Origin: an uncultured Burkholderiales bacterium
GTDB lineage: Bacteria; Pseudomonadota; Gammaproteobacteria; Burkholderiales; Burkholderiaceae_C
Length of the DNA stretch: 64,000 nt
Reading direction: 5' to 3'
Assembly: GCA_937873395.1 (NCBI GenBank)
Contig: CALMYH010000054.1
Location: forward strand, 29,379 to 93,378
Shown here: one piece after another, positions 44,234 through 54,529 of the stretch
How the letters are laid out: the number at the start of each line of letters is the position of its first letter
How positions within the stretch are numbered: position 1 is the stretch's first letter
Notes under the pieces: model-generated
Told to the model about the DNA's origin: nothing
The model's input: only the letters and a program-made list of their open reading frames with translations
Database searches by the model: none
Translations under genes and position numbers: made by a program

Positions 44234-44614
44234 ATGGACGCGATCCGTCTGCACCGCCGTTTTGCCGCCTGGCTGGCCATCTGGGCCCTGCTGGTGGCTG
44301 CGCTGTGGCCCGCCCTGGTGCAGGCGGCCGTCGCGGGCACGGACAAGTCCGGGTGGATCGAGGTCTGCAGCGCCTCCGGCATGGTCTGGGTCAAGGCCGA
44401 CGGTTCGTCCGAGTCGCAGGACCACCTGGCCAAGGACGCTGCCTCGCACTGCAACTGGTGCCAGCTGCACAGTGGCGGTGGACTGCCACCACACCACACA
44501 GACGCTGTGGGCCTGATGGCTGGCACCCACGACGTTCCCGCTTTCTTCACCGCAGCACCGCGACCGGCCCAGCCGCTGGCCACCCGATCACGCGCTCCCC
44601 CGCTGGCCGCCTGA
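44234..44614 (+). CDS. DUF2946 protein, copy 1 (copper island)
   Basis: 126 residues. An N-terminal hydrophobic signal or anchor (about 11-32) is followed by GWIEVCSASGMVWVKAD and then HCNWCQLH, the Cys/His-rich core of DUF2946. DUF2946 proteins are exported, usually sit beside copper genes and may bind copper, though no biochemical role is settled. The C-terminus is Pro/Ala/His-rich. First gene of an island with SCO1, PCuAC and MbnP/MbnH. Confidence 0.8.
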   Translation: MDAIRLHRRFAAWLAIWALLVAALWPALVQAAVAGTDKSGWIEVCSASGMVWVKADGSSESQDHLAKDAASHCNWCQLHSGGGLPPHHTDAVGLMAGTHDVPAFFTAAPRPAQPLATRSRAPPLAA

Positions 44615-44675
44615 CATCCCGACGCCCACGTCCACACGGCGGACGTGTTCCTGGTTCCGATGTTCAGGAGGCGCC

Positions 44676-45320
44676 ATGCCTCACGCCCCGTTCAAGCAAC
44701 TTGCTGTGTCTGCCGGCCGGCGCCGTGCGCTGTCCTGGCTGTTGTTGCCCGCTTTGACTGCGCTGGCTGCTTGTGACCGCTTGCCTGGTTCGTCGGGTTC
44801 GCCGGGATTCGAAGGCGTCGACATCACCGGTGCGCCCTATGGCCATGGTTTCGCGCTGACCGATTTCAGCGGGCAGCCGCGCACCCTGGCCGACTTCCAG
44901 GGCAAAGTGGTGATGCTGTATTTCGGCTTTGTCCAGTGCCCGGACGTCTGCCCCACGGCGCTGTCTCGTGCGGCCGCCGTGATGGAGCAACTGGGCCCGC
45001 AGGCCGCCGAGGTCCAGCTGCTGTTCGTCACGGTGGACCCCGAGCGCGACACGCCCGAGCTGCTGCGCGCGTACATGGCGGCCTTTGACCCGTCCTTCAT
45101 GGCCCTGACCGGCGCCGACGAGGACATCAAGGCAGCTGCCGAAGCGTTCCGGGTTTACTACAAGAGGGTCCCAACCGGCAGCAGCTACACCATGGACCAC
45201 ACGGCCCTGACCTATCTGATCGACCGCCAGGGGCGTCTGCGCGTGGCCCTGAGGCATGAGCAGGGCGCCGACGACTACGCCGCCGACATCCGGACTTTGC
45301 TGGCCGAAGACGCCGGCTGA
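44676..45320 (+). CDS. SCO1/SenC copper chaperone lipoprotein
   Basis: 214 residues. A signal with lipobox LAAC (Cys33) predicts membrane anchoring. The thioredoxin-like fold carries the copper-binding CPDVC (Cys88, Cys92) and His175 (MDHTALTY), the complete SCO ligand set. SCO proteins deliver copper to the CuA site of cytochrome oxidase or act as thiol-disulfide exchangers. Placed directly before a PCuAC gene, its usual partner. Confidence 0.95.
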   Translation: MPHAPFKQLAVSAGRRRALSWLLLPALTALAACDRLPGSSGSPGFEGVDITGAPYGHGFALTDFSGQPRTLADFQGKVVMLYFGFVQCPDVCPTALSRAAAVMEQLGPQAAEVQLLFVTVDPERDTPELLRAYMAAFDPSFMALTGADEDIKAAAEAFRVYYKRVPTGSSYTMDHTALTYLIDRQGRLRVALRHEQGADDYAADIRTLLAEDAG

Positions 45321-45362
45321 ACCAATTGTTTTTTTCCCACCCATCGACCAGGAGTCATCCCC

Positions 45363-45833
45363 ATGAAAAAACTCATCATCACCGGCCTGCTGGCCATCAC
45401 CACCGCTGCCTGGGCCCAGACCGTGGTCAAGGTGGAAGACGCCTGGGTGCGCGGCACCGTGGCCACGCAGAAGGCCACCGGCGCCTTCATGCGCCTGACG
45501 CCGTCCGCTAACGCACGCCTGGTCGCGGCCGAGTCGCCCGTGGCCGGCGTGGTGGAAATCCACGAAATGGCCATGGAGAAGGACGTCATGAGAATGCGCC
45601 AGATCCCGGGACTGGACCTGGCCGCCGGTCGCACCACGGAACTCAAGCCGGGTGGCTACCACGTGATGCTGATGGACCTCAAGCAGCCCTTGCAGGCCGG
45701 ACAGAACGTGCCCATCACCCTGGTGTTTGAAGACGCCGCCCGGCAGCGCTTCACGCAGCAGATTGCGGCGCCCGTCCAGGCGCTGGGCGCCGGCCACGGT
45801 CACAACAAATCCCACGGGGGCCACAAACACTGA
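45363..45833 (+). CDS. PCuAC periplasmic copper chaperone, copy 1
   Basis: 156 residues. Signal peptide ending AWA-Q. The PCuAC motif H-x10-M-x21-H-x-M is exact: His67, Met78, His100, Met102. It binds Cu(I) and passes it to SCO or to the oxidase. A His-rich tail (GHGHNKSHGGHKH) adds possible Cu(II) sites. AGGAG precedes the ATG. Confidence 0.95.
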   Translation: MKKLIITGLLAITTAAWAQTVVKVEDAWVRGTVATQKATGAFMRLTPSANARLVAAESPVAGVVEIHEMAMEKDVMRMRQIPGLDLAAGRTTELKPGGYHVMLMDLKQPLQAGQNVPITLVFEDAARQRFTQQIAAPVQALGAGHGHNKSHGGHKH

Positions 45834-45859
45834 GTCCCGCCAGACCTGCGCGCCTGACC

Positions 45860-46237
45860 ATGTCCCGGTCGCTCCTGCATGCCCTCACCCGCTGCCTGCT
45901 GGCCGCGATGGTGCTGGCCGTGCTGGCACCGTCGGTGTCGCGCGTGCTGGCCGCCGAGCGCACGGCGGGCGAATGGGTGCAGATCTGCACCGCGCAGGGA
46001 ATGGAATGGGTGCAGCTGGGTGACCGGCAAGACCCGCAAGACGCCAACGATCCGCTGGCCGTGCACGACCTGTGCGGCCATTGTGTCCTGGCCGCCGATC
46101 GCTTTGCACCGCTGTTGCCGACGCTGCCTGGCTGGCTGCCACCCGAGGGCGAGCGGGTTCCCCGCGACCAGCTGGTCCTGCCGCACCTGGCTTCGTCGGC
46201 GATGCCGCCGCTGGCCCGGGGGCCACCGAACACCTGA
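45860..46237 (+). CDS. DUF2946 protein, copy 2
   Basis: 125 residues with an N-terminal hydrophobic export signal (about 10-31), then EWVQICTAQGMEWVQLGD and DLCGHCVLAAD. The paired core (VCSASGM/ICTAQGM and CxxC) matches copy 1 at the same spacing, so the two are paralogues. Probably periplasmic and metal-related; function unproven. Confidence 0.8.
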   Translation: MSRSLLHALTRCLLAAMVLAVLAPSVSRVLAAERTAGEWVQICTAQGMEWVQLGDRQDPQDANDPLAVHDLCGHCVLAADRFAPLLPTLPGWLPPEGERVPRDQLVLPHLASSAMPPLARGPPNT

Positions 46238-46346
46238 TCTGAACGCCGGTGCACCTGCCCCAACGCGGGCTCGTGCGCCGATGAGTTCCTGGCCGATCGC
46301 CGCGTGTGATCGCCTGCCAGGGTGACGTTCCAGTCAGGAGTTCCAC

Positions 46347-46979
46347 ATGTCCCAGACTTCCGACCTGCCGCTGCAGGTCTTTGCCGGCCAGAGCCGGATC
46401 TTCAAATCGGGCGAATACGGTCCCCTGTGGCGGGTGACCGAGGGCGCCGTTCGGCTGGACCGCGAAAGCGGTCCCCAGCGCCTGCCGGTGCAACTGGCCC
46501 TGCCCGGTGACCTGGTGGGCCTTGAATCCCTGTGCGATCTGCCCTACCAGTTCACCGCCACGGCGTTCCAGGAGTGCCGGCTGGAAAGGGTCCCGGTGGC
46601 CGACCCGGCACACCGCCAGGCCCTGTTGCGCCAGGCCTTGCTGCAGCAGCAGGAGCGCAGCCACGACATGGCCACCTTGCGCACCGGCAGCGTGGTGCAG
46701 CGCGTGGTCCACCTGCTGCAGTTGCTGGGCCTGCCCTGGCAGAACCTGACGGCCCTGGCCGGTGCGCAGGCCGATGCTGTGCGGGCCCGGTTGCCGGCCC
46801 TGCGTGAGCTGGCACTGATGATCGACGCCAAGCACGAAACCGTCTGTCGTGCCCTGGCCCAGCTGCTGCCGCCGCGCAGCCGCAAGGGCGGACCGCCACG
46901 AACGTCGGTGCCCGTGGGTGCTGGTTCCGTGCCCTGGGCGGCAGGACCTTGGCAAGCCTTCCCGGCGGTGGCGGCATGA
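46347..46979 (+). CDS. Crp-like transcriptional regulator in the copper island
   Basis: 210 residues. An N-terminal cyclic-nucleotide-binding-like beta-roll (GPLWRVTEGAVRLDRES, LALPGDLVGLESLCDLPYQFTATAF) and a C-terminal helix-turn-helix (LRELALMIDAKHETVCRALAQL). The phosphate-binding cassette of true CRP is not evident, and there is no FNR-type N-terminal cysteine cluster; the effector is unknown. The 30-residue C-terminal tail is Pro/Gly-rich. It is coupled to the next gene, PCuAC copy 2, by an ATGA overlap, so it probably regulates this island. Confidence 0.8.
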   Translation: MSQTSDLPLQVFAGQSRIFKSGEYGPLWRVTEGAVRLDRESGPQRLPVQLALPGDLVGLESLCDLPYQFTATAFQECRLERVPVADPAHRQALLRQALLQQQERSHDMATLRTGSVVQRVVHLLQLLGLPWQNLTALAGAQADAVRARLPALRELALMIDAKHETVCRALAQLLPPRSRKGGPPRTSVPVGAGSVPWAAGPWQAFPAVAA

Positions 46980-47476
46980 GGCGCGTGCCAGTGAAGCGAC
47001 GGACCGCCCTTCGGGTGGGGCTTGCGCTGGTCATCGTGCCTGCCGCCGTGATGGCCCACGACTTCAGGGTCGGCGACCTGCGCATCGACCATCCCTATGC
47101 CACGCCGTCCCTGCCGGGGTCCGGCACCGGTGCGGTCTATTTCCGTTCCATCAGGAACCGGGGGCGCGAGCCCGACCGCCTGCTCTCGGCATCGACACCG
47201 GCGGCCGCGCGGGTCGAGATCCACCGCATGCGGATGGATGGCGACGTCATGCGCATGCGGGCGGTGGCCGATCTTCCCTTGCCCGCCCGATCCGACGTGC
47301 GGCTGCGGCATGGCATGACCGACGGTCATCACCTGATGCTGCTGGACCTGAAAGCGCCACTGAAGGACGGCGACCGCTTCCCCATCACCCTGCGCTTCGA
47401 ACGCGCCGGCGAACACACGGTGCAGGTCTGGGTACAGACGCCGCGCCGCGCAGGCAGCAGCCACGGACATCACTGA
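46976..47476 (+). CDS. PCuAC-type copper chaperone, copy 2, with a three-residue insertion
   Basis: 166 residues; basic N-terminus, hydrophobic signal ending VMA-H. The copper motif is recognisable but altered: His83-x10-Met94-x24-His119-x-Met121 in place of x21, and the insert region carries extra His and Met (RHGMTDGHH). It ends SSHGHH. The ATG overlaps the stop of the regulator gene (ATGA); a GTG-less longer frame is ignored. Likely a periplasmic Cu(I) chaperone with changed geometry. Confidence 0.85.
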   Translation: MRRVPVKRRTALRVGLALVIVPAAVMAHDFRVGDLRIDHPYATPSLPGSGTGAVYFRSIRNRGREPDRLLSASTPAAARVEIHRMRMDGDVMRMRAVADLPLPARSDVRLRHGMTDGHHLMLLDLKAPLKDGDRFPITLRFERAGEHTVQVWVQTPRRAGSSHGHH

Positions 47477-47651
47477 TGCGCTGCTCGCCGATCGTGCGCA
47501 TGGCAGCGGCCATCTGTGGGGACGGGTCTGATTACCCCGGTCGCTTTCGGTCTGACGATCGATCCACCGGGGACTGCTCGATGGCCGGCCGTTGGGCCGG
47601 CGCGAACGTTGACCGTCCGATGATTCCGGTGTTTCGCCAGCAAGGTTTCTG

Positions 47652-48077
47652 ATGTCGGTTCATCGATCCGGCCTGTTGTCGCTGCCAGCCGCCCGTGTGC
47701 GTGGCTGGCTGCGGCTGCTGTTGCTGTGTTCGCTGTTCTCGGCGCTGCACGCACCGCTGGGCGGCTGGGTGCTTGCCACATTCAGCCAGCAGGTGGTGGT
47801 TCAGGTCTGCACCCCGCAGGGCATGCAGTGGGTGGCTCTGGACGACGTGGATGCGGGTCGACCCGAAGGTGAACATTCAGAACCCACGGTCACCCTGCAG
47901 CCCTGTGCGTGGGCCGCTTCGCAATCGGCATTGCCCGGGCCCGCCCTGACGGATGGGGTGATCGCTGGGATCTTCGGTCGTCCTGTGGGCTGCGTCTTGC
48001 CCGACCCCCCGCCCAGCGATCACGTCAGTCGCGTGCTCCTCATGTCCCCCATGCGGGCGCCGCCCCAGGTGGCCTGA
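47652..48077 (+). CDS. DUF2946-like protein, copy 3, lacking the CxxC
   Basis: 141 residues; hydrophobic N-terminal segment (about 20-42), then VVQVCTPQGMQWVALDD, the same core as copies 1 and 2. The second core element is reduced to QPCAWA: the HCxxC or CGHC motif has lost its second Cys. It is probably exported, but its metal site must differ. It is separated from the preceding gene by 175 bp in which I see no gene. Confidence 0.7.
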   Translation: MSVHRSGLLSLPAARVRGWLRLLLLCSLFSALHAPLGGWVLATFSQQVVVQVCTPQGMQWVALDDVDAGRPEGEHSEPTVTLQPCAWAASQSALPGPALTDGVIAGIFGRPVGCVLPDPPPSDHVSRVLLMSPMRAPPQVA

Positions 48078-48197
48078 TGGTCTCCATCTCCTCTCTTGTT
48101 GCCGGTCATCGCCCGCCAGGGCCGCCGTCCGGACGGTGAGCCCGTGCGTGGCTCGGCAATCCTGTTCCCTGTCTTGTTTCTATTTTGAGATCCAACC

Positions 48198-49226
48198 ATG
48201 AAAAACACGTACACCCTTCTCGCGGCATCCCTGATGACCGCCGGACTCCTGGTCGCATGCGGTGGCGGCAGCGAAGATGCCACTCAGGATCCGCCCGCAC
48301 CCCGCCAGGTGACGATCGATTTCGGTCTGGTGGCCGGTGAGACGGCGGTCAGTTGTGCCACCGAATCCATTCCCGGACTGGGCACGACCGACGCCACCGG
48401 GCGCCTGCGCGATGCGCGCTTCTACGTCAGCAACGTCGCCATGATCAGCGCCGATGGGGTGGAAGTGCCGTTGACGCTGCCAGTCAACGACAACTGGAAC
48501 GTGACCGTGGGCGACAACCGCGTGACACTCATTGACCTGGAGGACCGCAGTGGTGCGTGTTCGGTGGGCACCACCGACATGAACCCCAGCCTCACCGGAA
48601 CGGTGCCAGCTGGCGAATATGTCGGCGTGGTGATGACCTTGGGGGTCCCTTTGGCACTCAACCACACCGACCAGGCCGCTGGCCTGGAGGTCACGCCGGC
48701 GGTGATCAACAACGCCGCTCACCCCGGCATGGCCTGGGCCTGGGCCGGCGGACGCAAGTTCGCCAAGGTCGAGCTGACCGACGTGCTGGCGGCCGAACCG
48801 GCGGGTACGTCTGGCAAGTGGGCGGCCCCGGTCTTCAACGTGCACCTGGGGTCGACGAACTGCACCGGCGACAACCCGGCCGCCGGACAGGTGAGCGCTT
48901 GTGCCCAGCCCAACCGGGCAACGATTCGTTTCTCCGCCTTTGATCCCGCCACACAGAAGATCAACCTCGATGTGCGGGCACTGATGGCGGGCAACGATGT
49001 CACCGTCAACCGGTCGGGCCCCACGGGCTGCATGTCAGGGCTGAGCGACTTCGAGTGCACCGGTGTGTTCACGGCCTTGCAGATTGGCTTTGATGGCGCC
49101 GCGGCTGCCGGAGCGACCTTCAATGGCGAGCCGCTGGTCATCGGCAAGGTGGGTGACGCGGCAAACTTCGGTCTGCCGATCAACGGCGGCGCTGCACAGA
49201 CCGTGTTCATGGTGGCGGCGAAATGA
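48198..49226 (+). CDS. mbnP: MbnP family copper-binding lipoprotein
   Basis: 342 residues. A lipobox VAC (Cys21) is followed by the MbnP ('metallo-mystery pair, four-Cys motif') domain. Mature cysteines at 53, 121, 222, 235, 278 and 287 give the disulfide pattern; HPGMAWAWAGGRKF (175-189) is the family's conserved segment with Trp180 and Trp182. In the methanotroph protein a Trp is oxidised to kynurenine by MbnH, creating a high-affinity copper site; His157, His175 and His216 are candidate ligands. Coupled to mbnH by ATGA. No methanobactin biosynthesis gene (mbnB/C) is in the window. Confidence 0.9.
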   Translation: MKNTYTLLAASLMTAGLLVACGGGSEDATQDPPAPRQVTIDFGLVAGETAVSCATESIPGLGTTDATGRLRDARFYVSNVAMISADGVEVPLTLPVNDNWNVTVGDNRVTLIDLEDRSGACSVGTTDMNPSLTGTVPAGEYVGVVMTLGVPLALNHTDQAAGLEVTPAVINNAAHPGMAWAWAGGRKFAKVELTDVLAAEPAGTSGKWAAPVFNVHLGSTNCTGDNPAAGQVSACAQPNRATIRFSAFDPATQKINLDVRALMAGNDVTVNRSGPTGCMSGLSDFECTGVFTALQIGFDGAAAAGATFNGEPLVIGKVGDAANFGLPINGGAAQTVFMVAAK

Positions 49227-50410
49227 GCCCGGGGCAACGTCTGATGCAGGCGTTGCTCGGCTTGGCCGGTGTGTCCGCCTTGGCGGGCACACTGGCCCTG
49301 TCGGGTTGCGGTGGTGGGGGCGTGTCGGTGACCGATACCGCACAAGGCGCCTTTCCGTGGAATCTGCCGCCTGGTTTCCCGGTGCCGCGGGTGCCCGACA
49401 GCAACCCGTTGACCGAGGCCAAGGCCGAACTGGGGCGCTTCCTGTTCTATGACCGGCGCCTGTCGGGCAACGGAACCCAGTCCTGCGCCAGCTGCCACCA
49501 CCAGGACAAGGCCTTCACCGATGGACGCGCGCTGGCGATCGGCTCGTCGGGTGAGGTGCATCCGCGCAACGCCCAGGGCCTGGCCAATGTGGTTTATCAC
49601 CCCACCCTGACCTGGGCCAACCCGTCGCTGCTGAGCCTGGAAGCGCAGATGCAGGTGCCGCTGTTTGGCGACAGCCCGGTGGAAATGGGCATCAACGATG
49701 GCAACAAGGACGAGGTTCTGGGTCGCATCCAGAGCGATCCCCGCTATGCCGAGCTGTTTGCCCAGGCGTTTCCGCAAGTGGAGACGCCCATCACCTGGGG
49801 CAACATCACGCGCGCGGTGTCGAGCTTTCAGCGCACGCTGATTTCGGGCAACAGCCGGTTCGACCGCAGCCAGCGTGGACAGGAAACGCTGTCACCCGCC
49901 GAGCAGCGCGGGCAGACCCTGTTCTTCGGGGAAAAGGCCGAGTGCTTCCACTGCCATGCCGGATTCAATTTGAACGATCAGGTGGTGCATGCGTCCACGC
50001 TGGTGCTGGACACCCCGTTTCACAACACGGGTCTGTACAACATCGGTAACACCGGCAACTTCCCGGAACACAACCAGGGCCTTTTCGAATTCACCAACCG
50101 GCTCACGGATCGGGGTCTGTTCAGGGCCCCCAGTTTGCGCAATGTGGAGGTGACGGCGCCCTACATGCACGACGGGAGCATCGCCACGCTCGAAGAGGTG
50201 CTGGATTTCTACGCCGCAGGCGGACGCAACATCACTTCCGGCCCCCATGCCGGGGATGGCCGTCTGCATCCCAACAAGAGTGACCTCATCGCGCGCATCG
50301 ACCTCAACCAGCAGGAGAAAGCCGACATCGTCGCTTTCCTCAGGACCCTGACCGACCATGATTTCCTCACCAACCCCAAGTTCTCCAACCCGTTTGCGGA
50401 AGGGCGCTGA
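49223..50410 (+). CDS. mbnH: MbnH family dihaem cytochrome c peroxidase-like protein
   Basis: 395 residues. Signal with LSGC (Cys29), so it is probably a lipoprotein. Two haem-c sites: Cys88-x2-Cys91-His92 (CASCH) and Cys241-x2-Cys244-His245 (CFHCH). The bacterial CCP/MauG fold shows FDRSQRG, LTDRGLFRAPSLRNVEVTAPYMHDGS and ATLEEVLDFYAAGG. MbnH is known to form a bis-Fe(IV) state and oxidise a Trp of MbnP. The four-base overlap with mbnP supports a stoichiometric pair. Confidence 0.92.
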   Translation: MSPGQRLMQALLGLAGVSALAGTLALSGCGGGGVSVTDTAQGAFPWNLPPGFPVPRVPDSNPLTEAKAELGRFLFYDRRLSGNGTQSCASCHHQDKAFTDGRALAIGSSGEVHPRNAQGLANVVYHPTLTWANPSLLSLEAQMQVPLFGDSPVEMGINDGNKDEVLGRIQSDPRYAELFAQAFPQVETPITWGNITRAVSSFQRTLISGNSRFDRSQRGQETLSPAEQRGQTLFFGEKAECFHCHAGFNLNDQVVHASTLVLDTPFHNTGLYNIGNTGNFPEHNQGLFEFTNRLTDRGLFRAPSLRNVEVTAPYMHDGSIATLEEVLDFYAAGGRNITSGPHAGDGRLHPNKSDLIARIDLNQQEKADIVAFLRTLTDHDFLTNPKFSNPFAEGR

Positions 50411-51629
50411 GCGCCACCTCGCCCAGGCCCTGATCGTGGTCGGCGGGGTTCTGTTCGCCACCCATGCGCAGGCCCACGGCGAGGTGGATGACGCCTTGCC
50501 GCCGGAGCCTGGCATCCGGTGGGATGCCGCTGCTGCGCTGCGTTCGCTCAAGGCCGACAACACCTTGCCGTCCACCCGACTGGACGGTTATCTGCTTCAG
50601 GGCGATGCCGGCATGAACCCGGATGGCACCCAGCTGGAGCATGGCGCCATCGGACTCGCGGCGCGGCTGAACAACACCTGGGGTGCCCGGCTGCTCATCG
50701 GAAAACACGGTGGCGAGAGCGCTGAAGTGGAGGAGGCCTGGGTACAGGCCCGCCGCGACGCCGACAACGGTGATGTCTGGCGCATGAGCGCTGGACGTCA
50801 GCGACCCGCCATGGGCGCAACTCTGGCGGGTGCCGGCCATTTCGATCGCTTCGGACTCATGCCTTTGGCGCAGCGCGCCGCGCTCGACCACCACTGGGTG
50901 GACGATGGCCTTCAGTTGAGCTGGCGCCGGTATCGGGCCTCGACGTGGTCGGTGGATATGGGGCTGTGGCGGGGAAAAGGGTTTCCCGGCTCGGCAGAAG
51001 GCCCTTGGGTACCCAGCCTGCACCTCGGCTGGGGCCGTGGTCCCTGGCAGGCCGATGTCCTGTGGGCGGGCTTCAGACCCGGTGGTCGGGGTGCCTCGGT
51101 GTCCAGTTCCGAAGATCACAGCCACGGGGCGCCGGTGTGCGATGCCCGTTTCACCGAGGTCATCTGCTTTGCCGGTGACAGCCAGCTTCTGGCCGCAAGC
51201 CTGTCCTGGTCGGGACTTGCCTCGGACGCCGCACTGCCACTGACCCTGACAGCCGCCGGCTGGTGGCGCAACGAGGACGGCACCTTGACATCGGCCAACG
51301 GACTGGCGGATTACCGCGGGAGCAGCCGCGGAGGCTGGCTGGAGGCGATCTGGCACATGGCCCCTGGCTGGGAGCTTGGTTGGCGTGGCGAGCGCCTGAG
51401 CGCATCGCACCGGTTGCACGGACCGGGTGCCTCCCTGCTGATGCGGGAAGCGCGTTTCGACCGCTACCAGCCGGTGACACGCCACGCGCTCATGGTCGGC
51501 TCGCGGCTGGCACCCTGGGCGCGCTGGACGGCGGAGGTGGGACGAGAATCGGTCCCTGGTTCGTCCCATCCCTACGCGGCCGTGCGCCTGTTGCTGCAAG
51601 CAAACGGAGGCCACGAGGCGCGACCCTAG
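50358..51629 (+). CDS. Predicted outer-membrane barrel protein next to MbnPH
   Basis: 423 residues. A signal peptide ends THAQA-HG; the mature protein is rich in alternating Trp/Arg/aromatic beta-strands (WGARLLIGKHGG, GLQLSWRRYRASTWSVDMGLWRG, WELGWRGERLSAS, YAAVRLLLQ), typical of a barrel in the outer membrane. An exposed loop HSHGAPVCDARFTEVICF has His and two Cys and could touch metal. It shares 53 bases with the end of mbnH in another frame; an in-frame TTG at 50394 would reduce the overlap to 17. I do not recognise a named family. It may be the outer-membrane port or partner of the copper system. Confidence 0.75.
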   Translation: MISSPTPSSPTRLRKGAERHLAQALIVVGGVLFATHAQAHGEVDDALPPEPGIRWDAAAALRSLKADNTLPSTRLDGYLLQGDAGMNPDGTQLEHGAIGLAARLNNTWGARLLIGKHGGESAEVEEAWVQARRDADNGDVWRMSAGRQRPAMGATLAGAGHFDRFGLMPLAQRAALDHHWVDDGLQLSWRRYRASTWSVDMGLWRGKGFPGSAEGPWVPSLHLGWGRGPWQADVLWAGFRPGGRGASVSSSEDHSHGAPVCDARFTEVICFAGDSQLLAASLSWSGLASDAALPLTLTAAGWWRNEDGTLTSANGLADYRGSSRGGWLEAIWHMAPGWELGWRGERLSASHRLHGPGASLLMREARFDRYQPVTRHALMVGSRLAPWARWTAEVGRESVPGSSHPYAAVRLLLQANGGHEARP

Positions 51630-51665: not shown

Positions 51666-51683
51666 TGAAAGCCTTGGCTTTCA
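51666..51683. terminator. Bidirectional hairpin between the copper island and fbpC
   Basis: TGAAAGCC-TT-GGCTTTCA is an 8-bp perfect inverted repeat between two converging genes; it includes the fbpC stop codon. Flanking T-runs are short, so it is a plausible rather than certain terminator. Confidence 0.4.
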
Positions 51684-52790
51684 GACCGAGCGGCTGACCG
51701 CCGGTGCCGGCGGCGACCCCGCCGCGCCGCCGCGCTCGAAGGTCACCACGTGGTCGACCTCGGCGCGGATGCCGATCCACTCCCCCACCGCGTGGTTGTG
51801 GTGCGAGGGCACGTGGGTCATGAGGGTCTCGCCGCTGGCCAGGCGCAGGGTGTAGAGAAACTCCGAGCCCCGGAAGGCCTTGCGCACGATCTGGGCTTTC
51901 ACCGGCGCGTCGTCGTCGTGCACGATGTCATCGGCGCGCAGCAGCACGTCGCACAGACCGGCCTCGTAGGCGCTGGGCAACGGGCACTCTTCCATGTCCT
52001 GCAGGGCACCCAGCGGGGTCTGCACCGTCACTTCGCCGCCGTCGAGGCGGATCTGGGCAGGCGCGAACACGCCGTGACCGATGAACTCGGCCACGAAGCG
52101 GGTGGCCGGCCGGTGGTAGAGGGCATAGGCGTCGTCCCACTGGTGCAGGTGCCCTTCGTGCATCACACCGATGCGGTCGCCGATGGCGAAGGCCTCCAGC
52201 TGGTCGTGGGTGACGAACAGGGCGGTGGCCCGGGCGGCTTTCAGGATGCCGCGCACCTCATGGGCCAGGCGCTCGCGCAGGTCCACGTCCAGGTTGGAGA
52301 AGGGTTCGTCCAGCAGCAACAGGCGCGGCTGCGGCGCCAAGGCCCGGGCCAGCGCCACGCGCTGCTGCTGGCCACCCGAGAGCTCGTGGGGGTAGCGCGA
52401 CTGCATCCCGTCCAGACCGACCAGGCCCAGCACCTCGGCCACCCGCCGCTGGCGCTCGGCCCGCGGCAGCCGGGCAATGCCGAAACCGACATTGCGTTCG
52501 ACGTCGAGGTGCGGGAACAGCGCGTAGTCCTGGAACACCATGCCGATGCGCCGCTGTTCAGGGGGCAGGTGCCGGCTGCCGTCGCTGACGGTCTCGCCAC
52601 CGAGCACGATGCTGCCCCGGCTGGCCCGCTCCAGGCCGGCCACCGCCCGCAGCAGGGTGGTCTTGCCACAACCGGAAGGGCCGATCAGCACACCGATGTC
52701 GCCGGCGGCCAGCTCCAGGGACACACCCGCCACGGCCGGGCGGGCCGCTGCGGGGTACTGGACATCGAGTTGCCGAACCGATAGGAACAT
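51681..52790 (-). CDS. fbpC: Ferric-type ABC transporter ATP-binding protein
   Basis: 369 residues. Walker A GPSGCGKTT, Q-loop VFQDYALFPH, signature LSGGQQQRVALARAL, Walker B LLLLDEPFSNLD and H-loop VTHDQ are all canonical; the C-terminal regulatory TOBE domain is of the FbpC/PotA type. It should energise the permease encoded on the opposite strand. AGGAG lies before the ATG, directly beside a palindrome and a Fur-like box. No periplasmic binding protein (fbpA) is in the window. Confidence 0.9.
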   Translation of the reverse strand: MFLSVRQLDVQYPAAARPAVAGVSLELAAGDIGVLIGPSGCGKTTLLRAVAGLERASRGSIVLGGETVSDGSRHLPPEQRRIGMVFQDYALFPHLDVERNVGFGIARLPRAERQRRVAEVLGLVGLDGMQSRYPHELSGGQQQRVALARALAPQPRLLLLDEPFSNLDVDLRERLAHEVRGILKAARATALFVTHDQLEAFAIGDRIGVMHEGHLHQWDDAYALYHRPATRFVAEFIGHGVFAPAQIRLDGGEVTVQTPLGALQDMEECPLPSAYEAGLCDVLLRADDIVHDDDAPVKAQIVRKAFRGSEFLYTLRLASGETLMTHVPSHHNHAVGEWIGIRAEVDHVVTFERGGAAGSPPAPAVSRSV

Positions 52791-52797
52791 GGCTCCT

Positions 52798-52823
52798 ATT
52801 GTAGATAACTACAATTCTCATTT
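52798..52823. promoter_or_regulatory. Palindrome and Fur-like box in the fbpC/fbpB divergent promoter
   Basis: ATTGTAG-ATAA-CTACAAT (52798-52815) is a perfect 7-4-7 inverted repeat giving TACAAT -10-like boxes on both strands. The overlapping ATAACTACAATTCTCATTT (52805-52823) reads AAATGAGAATTGTAGTTAT on the other strand, close to Fur boxes of iron genes. It abuts the fbpC ribosome site and precedes fbpB by about 100 bp. Confidence 0.55.
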
Positions 52824-52921
52824 GTGTTGATCTGCCTCAATCCACTCGGAAAAGGGGTGCCTGGCCAGGCTGGCATGATGGCGGCTGTGCCGCTGTCTTC
52901 TGGCCCGACCCCATCCTGTTC

Positions 52922-54529
52922 ATGCCACGCTGGTTTCTCCTGGTCTTGCTCCTGCTGGTTGCCCTGGCGCTGACTCTGCCCGTGCTGGCCTTGCTGGGTT
53001 CCTGGGCCCAGCTCGATGCGGCGGCGCGCGACGTGTTGCACCAGATGGCGCAGACCGTGTTGCCAGACTACCTGTGGACCACGGTGTGGCTCTGCCTGAG
53101 TGTGGCCCTAGGTGTGGGGGTGGTGGGCATGGCAACGGCCAGCGCCGTGACCCTGTTCGACTTTCCTGGGCGACGGGTCTTCGAATGGGCCTTGCTGCTG
53201 CCACTGGCCATGCCGGCCTATGTGGTCGCCTACGCTTACACCGACTTCCTGCAATTCAGCGGCCCTTTGCAGGTGTGGTTGCGCGAAACCTTCGGTCTGA
53301 GCGGTCGGGTGTTCCCCGAGATACGCAACACCCCAGGGGCAGTCTGGGTGTTCACCTTCACCCTCTACCCTTACGTCTACCTGCTGGCGCGCACGGCGCT
53401 GACCGAACGGGCCTCGCAATTGATGGAGGCGGCCCGGCTGCTGGGGGCTCCGCTCATCCGGCGCATCCGCGAGGTGGCCTTGCCACTGGCCCGGCCGGCC
53501 GTGGCGGCGGGCGTGGCCCTGGCGTTGATGGAGACCCTGGCCGACTTCGGGGTCGCCAGCTATTTTGGGATCCAGACCTTCACCGCCGGCATCTACAAGG
53601 CCTGGCTGGCCATGGACATGCCATTGGCGGCGGCCCAGCTGTCCACCATGCTGCTGGCGCTGGTCGCGCTGCTGCTGTGGCTGGAACACCGGGCCCAGCG
53701 CCGCATGCGCTTTGCCAGCCTGCGTGGCCAGCGTGCCGGCAGCGACGAGGCCCAGCCGACGCGCCTGAGGGGGGCACGTGCGCTGCTGGCCTGGGTCTTG
53801 TGTGCCCTGCCGGTGCTGTTCGGCTTTGTGCTGCCGGTGCTGTTCATGCTGCGCCCGCTCATCGGTGGCTGGGACGAGCTGCCCTGGAACATGTTCCTGC
53901 AATGGTCGCGCAACAGCCTCTGGTTGGCCGGCATCAGTGCCGTGCTGGCCACCGCGCTGGCGCTGCTCCTGGCTTTTGCCGCGCGGGTGCGACCGGGCGC
54001 GTTGACCCGCGGTGTGTCCCAGCTCGCCAGTCTCGGATACGCGGTGCCCGGTGCGGTGATTGTGGTGGGCATTCTGCTGCCGGTCGGGTGGGTGCAGTCG
54101 GTCCGGCCGGACACCTCGGTCGGATACTGGATCACCGCCACCGCGCTGGGCATCGTCTGGGCCTACCTGGTGCGTTTCACGGCGGTCGCCCTGCAATCGG
54201 TGCAAAGCGGCTACAGCCGGGTGCCGGCCAGCCTGGACGACTCCGCCCGGATGCTGGGCACCACCGGCTTCGGGCTGGCCTGGCGGGTGCATGGGCCGCT
54301 GTTGTGGCGCTCGACCCTGGCGGCCACGCTGCTGGTGTTTGTGGATGTCATGAAGGAGCTGCCGGCCACCCTGGTGCTGAGGCCCTTCAACAGCGACACC
54401 CTGGCGGTGGTCACCTACCAGCTGGCGCGGGACGAGCGCCTGGGCGAGGCGGCGCTGCCGGCGCTCACGCTGGTGCTGGTGGGCCTGCTGCCGGTCATCC
54501 TTCTCAGCCGCACGCTGCGCCAGCGCTGA
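52922..54529 (+). CDS. fbpB: Ferric-type ABC transporter permease (FbpB-like)
   Basis: 535 residues with about 12 membrane segments in two homologous halves, each carrying an EAA loop for the ATPase: EAARLLGAPLIRRIREVALPLARPA (first half) and DSARMLGTTGFGLAWRVHGPLLWRS (second). This two-in-one layout is that of FbpB/SfuB ferric permeases. It imports Fe(III) with the ATPase encoded divergently. Substrate specificity (ferric ion or another cation) is inferred from family and from the Fur-like site. Confidence 0.88.
   Translation: MPRWFLLVLLLLVALALTLPVLALLGSWAQLDAAARDVLHQMAQTVLPDYLWTTVWLCLSVALGVGVVGMATASAVTLFDFPGRRVFEWALLLPLAMPAYVVAYAYTDFLQFSGPLQVWLRETFGLSGRVFPEIRNTPGAVWVFTFTLYPYVYLLARTALTERASQLMEAARLLGAPLIRRIREVALPLARPAVAAGVALALMETLADFGVASYFGIQTFTAGIYKAWLAMDMPLAAAQLSTMLLALVALLLWLEHRAQRRMRFASLRGQRAGSDEAQPTRLRGARALLAWVLCALPVLFGFVLPVLFMLRPLIGGWDELPWNMFLQWSRNSLWLAGISAVLATALALLLAFAARVRPGALTRGVSQLASLGYAVPGAVIVVGILLPVGWVQSVRPDTSVGYWITATALGIVWAYLVRFTAVALQSVQSGYSRVPASLDDSARMLGTTGFGLAWRVHGPLLWRSTLAATLLVFVDVMKELPATLVLRPFNSDTLAVVTYQLARDERLGEAALPALTLVLVGLLPVILLSRTLRQR

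Follow-up and report, generated by a model that had tools for sequence, protein, structure and literature searches.

A copper island of ten open reading frames (ORFs), all on the plus strand, fills positions 44234-51629 of a 64,000-nt window (i.e. the whole stretch of DNA analyzed, to which all coordinates refer) from an uncultured Burkholderiales bacterium with a 3.7 Mb genome that is 99.49% complete. Three of these ORFs encode DUF2946 proteins that are most likely regulators of the CruR type, so that the island most likely splits into three CruR-headed cassettes, namely SCO1-PCuAC, Crp-PCuAC and MbnP-MbnH-porin. The first comprises cruR1 (44234-44614; Pfam PF11162, E = 7.3e-15, 56.2 bits at a cut-off of 23.7), the gene for a SCO1/SenC copper chaperone (44676-45320; PF02630, 1.7e-48) and that for a periplasmic copper chaperone, PCuAC_1 (45363-45833; PF04314, 4e-39). 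The second contains cruR2 (45860-46237; PF11162, 4.1e-12, 47.3 bits at the same cut-off), a Crp/Fnr-like regulator gene (46347-46979; PF00027, cNMP_binding, 2.9e-7, with the NCBIfam CRP/FNR models far below cut-off) and the gene for a second periplasmic copper chaperone, PCuAC_2 (46949-47476; PF04314, 2e-33). The third consists of cruR3 (47652-48077), mbnP (48198-49226; TIGR04052, 3.3e-66, 223 bits, cut-off 140), the gene for the di-haem enzyme MbnH (49223-50410; TIGR04039, 9.7e-153, 508 bits, cut-off 363) and that for a porin-like outer-membrane barrel (50358-51629). An initial annotation had named the same families on one strand, and all were found where it put them (the third DUF2946 by profile only). 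Its count of eight to nine genes becomes ten, and of the several four-base overlaps it described, only that of MbnP with MbnH has this length, the others as called measuring 31 (Crp/PCuAC) and 53 bases (MbnH/barrel).

Probable CruR-type leaders and their conservation

DUF2946 was linked to copper in 2018 via gene neighborhood (PMC8456105). CruR itself, as described by Roy et al. (2022, PMC9426467), is the DUF2946 protein Bp2923, an upstream ORF of the Bordetella pertussis bfrG operon. According to that text, expression requires a RAPP motif near the end of the protein and the copper response requires a CxxC motif, termed invariant; replacing both CxxC cysteines impairs regulation, not expression, a semi-conserved upstream Cys is dispensable, and premature stops abolish downstream expression. 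Copper brings about Rho-dependent termination, the genes found behind CruR include Sco, PCuAC and MbnPH-like ones, and the authors cite a CruR-headed oxidase-biogenesis operon that is induced by copper starvation (PMC9426467). Arrest by CruR was shown in vitro in 2025 with a purified system; RAPP and RGPP both support it in several contexts, and in the arrested state the two Pro codons occupy the ribosomal P and A sites (PMC12992588).

By family, motif and position, the three DUF2946 proteins of the island are most likely such regulatory leaders. Both DUF2946 matches above the Pfam cut-off in the whole genome lie inside the island and the third protein adjoins them, a clustering that thus exceeds chance; two weak matches (E 0.03 and 0.06) lie elsewhere in the genome. 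cruR1 and cruR2 combine a CxxC with a RAPP/RGPP about 45 residues away (CNWC and a C-terminal RAPP in cruR1, CGHC and RGPP in cruR2). Among 105 distinct CruR-like ORFs, a motif rule found CxxC in 87, located 41-48 residues ahead of the arrest motif, and a C-terminal RAPP/RGPP in 95. The 18 ORFs lacking CxxC by this rule are made up of ten members of a CxW[ASV] clade that includes cruR3 (see below), three with HGPP ends, two from Nitrospirillum, one from Oleiphilus, the second CruR of locus L097, whose arrest motif is unreadable, and L193, an artefact of the rule, as it carries CPWC. The HGPP-type ORFs (L195, 1516-1932; L197, 1018-1875; L203, 397-1899) constitute a separate CruR-like clade that ends in KHGPP rather than RAPP/RGPP and has lost the second Cys (CVLT/CALS). 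Within the RGPP lineage, two loci carry CruR pairs that are divergent and arranged back-to-back (L056, 593-1515; L071, 6939-7819).

The initial annotation had seen uptake or delivery machinery in the DUF2946 proteins, to which their family, motif and position are poorly suited, as all three point to CruR leaders. Were they periplasmic copper carriers placed ahead of copper genes by coincidence, this would fit a hydrophobic N-terminal segment, recognized by eye, and the Cys pair. However, RAPP/RGPP sits at the C-terminus of nearly all homologs, the genes precede copper genes, and the B. pertussis protein arrests in vitro (PMC12992588) and loses downstream expression upon premature stops (PMC9426467), leaving the carrier reading very improbable. 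Given that the DUF2946 proteins appear to be CruR-type leaders, the Crp-like protein, which had been proposed as a dedicated regulator and is indeed present, is probably not the only one.

In related genomes, MbnP scored over cut-off in 21 of 200 from the family and MbnH in 18 of 300 from the order, the host's own genome included in both. The 20 family relatives fetched gave 19 readable mbnP-mbnH pairs (L086 is cut off). A CruR is encoded on the same strand within 6.5 kb upstream of 18 of these, and in the exception, L078, the sequence begins within the gene before mbnP. PCuAC was found upstream of 13 pairs, SCO1 of six and Crp of five; thus, in a preset test of the neighborhood conservation expected by the initial annotation, CruR was retained and SCO1 and Crp mostly were not. 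Beyond the family the link between CruR and mbnPH weakens, with a CruR at 7 of 14 readable pairs at the order level (17 loci, one from the family) and, in a set of 79 named loci (the best of at least 586 confirmed matches, a few repeating genomes already counted), at 7 of the 65 pairs that could be read. Within the genus, leaders are common and mbnPH is patchy: DUF2946 occurred in 57 of 67 genomes, and MbnH at 1e-60 in 8 of 60, own genome included. All ten genes are found in the same order in the genus relatives L220, L221 and L222 and in L084. A second CruR was not detected in L077 and L213; that of L097, a Hydrogenophaga metagenome-assembled genome (MAG), has wider spacing, and the barrel there runs across two frames.

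Leader ends and the next Shine-Dalgarno sequence

In silico folding predicted that the ends of cruR1 and cruR2 pair with the ribosome-binding site of the gene that follows. The cruR1 stop region (44610-44618) forms a predicted stem with the SCO1 Shine-Dalgarno region (44659-44671), at a pairing probability of 0.66 compared with 0.26 after shuffling (z of the whole region, -0.43). For the Crp gene, the predicted stem joins its Shine-Dalgarno region (46326-46343) to the cruR2 stop region (46228-46245) at 0.83 versus 0.25 shuffled, with a minimum free energy of -62.3 kcal/mol that was reached by 1 of 200 shuffles (z -3.48). Folding of the leader gap indicated no pairing of the cruR3 end with the mbnP Shine-Dalgarno.

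We extended this analysis to the 105 CruRs, of which 62 had a recognized next gene and Shine-Dalgarno and 61 were scored; start codons were picked by a rule favoring AGGAGG-like sites, and some gaps above 200 nt may be wrong starts. Relative to shuffled leader ends, pairing probability was raised at SCO1 (0.75 vs 0.33; n = 16, 8 at ≤0.05), Crp (0.63 vs 0.30; n = 15, 5 at ≤0.05) and PCuAC_2 junctions (0.73 vs 0.40; n = 5, 2 at ≤0.05), and two single junctions of other kinds were likewise paired. Junctions to mbnP gave 0.19 vs 0.08 behind CxW[ASV] CruRs (n = 5, 1 at ≤0.05) and no excess behind other CruRs (0.27 vs 0.27; n = 10, 0 at ≤0.05). Arm-to-arm energies set against shuffles were -6.0 kcal/mol for SCO1 (n = 16; reached by none of 200 shuffle sets), -3.2 for Crp and -8.05 for PCuAC_2, compared with 0.0 for mbnP, +0.8 for PCuAC_1 and +0.3 for 61 junctions not beginning at a CruR. 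When partners were swapped between loci, own partners beat swapped ones for SCO1, with 1 of 5000 permutations as low and the difference reached by 0 of 200 shuffle sets; the small PCuAC_2 set gave 38 of 5000, and mbnP (855 of 5000) and PCuAC_1 (3231 of 5000) were null. Previously untested junctions had energies of -8.05 for SCO1 (n = 13, 11 at ≤0.05; not independent, since all are from the window's genus), -7.7 for Crp (n = 3, 2 at ≤0.05), -3.5 for other genes (n = 13, 5 at ≤0.05) and -1.9 for PCuAC_2 (n = 1, 0 at ≤0.05). SCO1 cassettes and, with less certainty, Crp cassettes thus show a predicted pairing between the CruR stop region and the ribosome-binding site of the gene behind it. This pairing is new relative to the open-access literature searched; neither 'Shine' nor 'ribosome binding' appears in the main text of PMC9426467.

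cruR3 and the MbnP-MbnH-porin cassette

The third leader departs from this pattern in its sensor motif as well. cruR3 had no Pfam DUF2946 match at E 0.01 and joined the family through an iterated profile; a profile built on its type matched cruR2 of the same genome as well (1.8e-6). Its RAPP is retained (MRAPPQVA), and CAWA replaces CxxC, i.e. the second Cys is lost. In a tree of the 105 CruR-like ORFs, built on few columns and with the bootstrap not settled, ten CxW[ASV] rows, including cruR3 of the window (entered as L176), formed one clade with a support of 100/99. The rows nearest to it (L056, L071, L185 and L081) are CruRs with CxxC and likewise precede mbnP, the joining forks being unstarred. 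Nine of the ten clade members precede mbnP and one (L180/L214) a TonB-dependent receptor, and nine sit behind another same-strand CruR, which L214 does not. This clade before mbnP is new relative to the open-access literature searched, and no single-Cys variant of CxxC was found in the CruR literature as covered by PMC9426467. In two later samples, each of the 62 CruR ORFs that end in R[AG]PP carried CxxC (61 proteins, 10 from the first set and 51 new, with nine further class ORFs without R[AG]PP left out); these samples are the best matches from 250 order and 67 genus genomes and, being chosen by Pfam score, lean to typical members. The second Cys is also lost in the HGPP-type loci mentioned above and in Nitrospirillum L163, apparently independently of the CxW[ASV] clade.

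With neither the second sensor Cys nor the pairing, the gate of the third cassette should respond little to copper or sense something else. One version of the latter, that CruR3 still reads copper or another ligand through Cys85 together with the upstream Cys53, or through the Met-x-x-Met beside RAPP, in place of CxxC, so that all three cassettes would be gated, can draw on the conservation of Cys53, Cys85 and Trp87 across the clade and on the tail RVLLM[AS][AP]MRAPP shared by nine of its ten members. The ratio of nonsynonymous to synonymous substitution rates (dN/dS) is compatible with it too: across the genus pairs (nine of ten, the tenth being saturated) cruR3 ranged from 0.26 to 0.48, resembling cruR1 (0.36-0.83) and cruR2 (0.19-0.57), which argues that it is under purifying selection and not simply decaying. 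However, in B. pertussis the upstream Cys was dispensable and loss of both CxxC cysteines left expression intact while impairing regulation, and the CruR literature covered offers no single-Cys precedent (PMC9426467). We therefore regard a ligand-sensing CruR3 as possible, yet doubtful, and keep to a gate that is largely blind to copper or differently tuned. A serial-gate hypothesis, in which the last gate loses its sensor as the upstream gates sense, was rejected, as many second CruRs keep CxxC, including the motif-readable cruR2 rows and L071, L075 and L076, which head mbnP; on the tree, the Cys appears to have been lost in a single event.

The MbnP of the island contains a WxW at 180-182 and a lipobox-like Cys21. 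Over 111 sequences, W180 was conserved in 110, W182 in 111, H156 and H216 in 109 each, and six Cys in 105-108 each. In methanotrophs, MbnH oxidizes a Trp of MbnP to kynurenine, and W180, W182, H156 and H216 are presumably copper ligands. MbnH carries two CxxCH haem motifs, whose C/C/H columns were invariant over 13 sequences. Anchoring of both proteins as lipoproteins was rejected, as a lipobox-like Cys occurred in only 60 of 111 MbnP and 77 of 134 MbnH sequences. The initial annotation described the pair as known from methanotrophs, which is too narrow: MbnPH were reported outside methanobactin operons, far beyond methanobactin producers, in 2013 (PMC3621798), and behind CruR in 2022 (PMC9426467). 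Its statement that mbnB and mbnC are absent stands for MbnB (TIGR04159), which had no match in the whole genome, mbnC and mbnA not having been searched; a model of OprC-type copper receptors also had no match genome-wide. As side observations, an in-frame stop (TAG) splits MbnP in a Comamonadaceae MAG (L080/L099, 7979-8890), and a further MbnH-like di-haem protein, more distant and below the family cut-off, is encoded elsewhere in the genome (L091, 2763-3878; G000:C77).

The barrel that follows MbnH had no Pfam or NCBIfam match. Its structural model (11 sequences; predicted local distance difference test score of 80) shows 16 long strands by count and matched porins in Foldseek at a template modeling (TM) score of about 0.5. 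A His (His40) lies directly past the AxA signal site, cleavage being assigned by the AxA rule rather than by a predictor, and H117 and an H254xH256 motif are found further on. Across 33 barrel rows from 32 loci, 31 have a His next to the signal site, with Ala before it in 28, and H254, H256 and H117 are present in 33, 32 and 31, respectively. Because model confidence is low in the stretches with His40 and H254/H256, we make no claim about site geometry. The barrel stands behind mbnH in 10 of 19 family, 5 of 13 order, 4 of 6 genus and 10 of 58 named pairs whose sequence extends far enough (named pairs being those among the best matches listed), the most distant barrel-bearing locus being from Sulfurovum. 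Seven barrel-less loci instead have a TonB-dependent receptor in this slot (L083, L087, L089, L072, L162, L070 and L102; five by Pfam, two by NCBIfam), most of which resemble haemin/copper receptor models, none reaching the copper-receptor cut-off; the remaining ones have varied genes there. The porin-like barrel, with a His past the signal site, an HxH loop and TonB-dependent alternates, is new relative to the open-access literature searched, which returned nothing under 'mystery pair' and nothing relevant on an N-terminal-His copper porin. Adjoining the island (51681-54529) are genes named by eye as an FbpC-like ATP-binding cassette ATPase (minus strand) and an FbpB-like permease (plus strand), i.e. 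iron uptake next to copper genes.

A copper-gating model and its precedents

As family, motif, spacing and position match the published CruR of B. pertussis, we infer CruR-type gating, and on balance consider it probable that the island is a set for copper acquisition and delivery at low copper, arranged in three CruR-gated cassettes. In the absence of copper, the ribosome would arrest at the RAPP/RGPP of CruR and the genes behind would stay on; copper bound at CxxC would release the arrest and turn them off. In cassettes 1 and 2, a ribosome arrested on the stop region would help expose the next gene's Shine-Dalgarno, as in CutF but with the sign of CruR. mbnP, mbnH and the porin gene would follow the two upstream gates if the transcript is shared. 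Judged from the protein families, the porin, or a TonB receptor elsewhere, would carry copper across the outer membrane, MbnP, its Trp oxidized by MbnH, would bind it, and PCuAC and SCO1 would hand it to oxidases. The role in copper acquisition and oxidase maturation suggested by the initial annotation fits this gene content.

At arrest, the leading edge of the ribosome reaches about the stop codon and thus into the 5′ arm of the stem. Modeled as 16 covered bases, the arrested ribosome left Shine-Dalgarno access flat at mbnP (0.44 to 0.43) and PCuAC_1 (0.36 to 0.37), and a ribosome that terminates at the stop codon would mask a longer stretch than an arrested one.

Several observations weigh against the model. 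The rise in access upon footprint modeling was modest (0.10 to 0.26 in the SCO1 class, 0.25 to 0.33 in the Crp class), with gains of at least 0.2 in 5 of 16 SCO1 and 3 of 15 Crp loci and drops in some. PCuAC_1 junctions did not pair, either in the first set (0.19 vs 0.24 shuffled; n = 8, 0 at ≤0.05) or among those previously untested (+0.65; n = 13, 0 at ≤0.05). For Crp, the preference for own over swapped partners was weak (220 of 5000 permutations, 15 of 200 shuffle sets), and the own partner ranked best of all in only 2 of 16 SCO1 and 1 of 15 Crp loci. Base composition fails to support the Rho step: the bubbles of C over G at the ends of cruR1, cruR3 and cruR2 (32.1, 24.4 and 12.8 points, the last being low) were dropped as evidence of Rho-dependent termination, since gene-end controls such as SCO1 (26.9, the highest), MbnH (25.6) and PCuAC_1 (24.4) match cruR3. 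A promoter and terminator scan revealed no promoter-like site and nothing above shuffles, and serial position does not explain the Cys lost from cruR3.

The stem was computed, and its regulatory effect and sign are our proposal. The CutF leader of the Rhodobacter capsulatus cutFOG operon, a related protein, has a sign opposite to that of CruR, and a stem there masks the Shine-Dalgarno of the following gene (PMC9973294). If the island's leaders worked likewise, copper would strengthen the arrest and switch the downstream genes on, for which speak the likeness of the stop-region stems to the CutF-CutO stem and the footprint modeling, which is compatible with either sign. However, the leaders are DUF2946/CruR proteins with CxxC and RAPP/RGPP, and CruR and CutF fall into separate clusters (PMC9973294); their cargo of SCO1, PCuAC, MbnPH and TonB receptors serves acquisition and assembly; and the CruR-headed oxidase-biogenesis operon is induced by copper starvation (cited in PMC9426467). 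Because of family and cargo we favor the CruR sign and deem the CutF sign unlikely. More speculative than the three-cassette model, and improbable in its full form, is a reading in which nascent-peptide copper gates form a cascade: the MbnP-MbnH-porin leader would be copper-blind or re-tuned, those of SCO1 and Crp would combine copper-released arrest with a ribosome-binding-site stem anchored at the stop codon, and the porin would be a dedicated copper channel using its mature N-terminal His and HxH loop.

In the literature searched, two leader proteins, CruR and CutF, have been worked out as readers of copper in the course of translation. Should the pairing work in the way we propose, translation of the next gene would come under the direct control of CruR leaders, besides transcription, and one family would unite both published models. 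Because cruR3 naturally lacks the second sensor Cys, it offers a means to tell the sensing part of a CruR from the arresting part, and the porin-like partner would supply MbnP/MbnH outside methanotrophs with an outer-membrane route.

Compared with CruR of B. pertussis, the island's leaders share the family, CxxC, RAPP/RGPP near the C-terminus, the spacing and the position before copper genes; the island differs in having three of them, in the missing second Cys of cruR3 and in the predicted pairing of the cruR1 and cruR2 stop regions to the next Shine-Dalgarno. With CutF they have in common an arrest-like motif at the C-terminus and, behind it, a stem hiding the next gene's Shine-Dalgarno (predicted at cruR1 and cruR2, not at cruR3). 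In contrast, CutF itself has CxxxC, is a system turned on by copper and controls a multicopper oxidase, whereas the leaders here have CxxC, belong to the CruR family, precede acquisition and assembly cargo and leave gaps of 61 and 109 nt. MbnP/MbnH (TIGR04052/TIGR04039; MopE/CorA analogs) agree with their known counterparts in the gene pair, the WxW, the two His, the Cys pattern, the di-haem partner and the solved relatives (7l6g for MbnP, 6e1c for MbnH), but here occur in a genome without an MbnB match, behind a CruR and before a porin-like barrel instead of an MbnT receptor. The barrel shares its fold with general porins (OmpF, BpsOmp38 and Vibrio cholerae OmpT), as found by structure search, yet is only 9-13% identical to them, has the conserved His past the signal site and the HxH loop, and belongs to no Pfam family. 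What is new is thus a variant of known leader switches, together with a porin-like partner outside the Pfam families.

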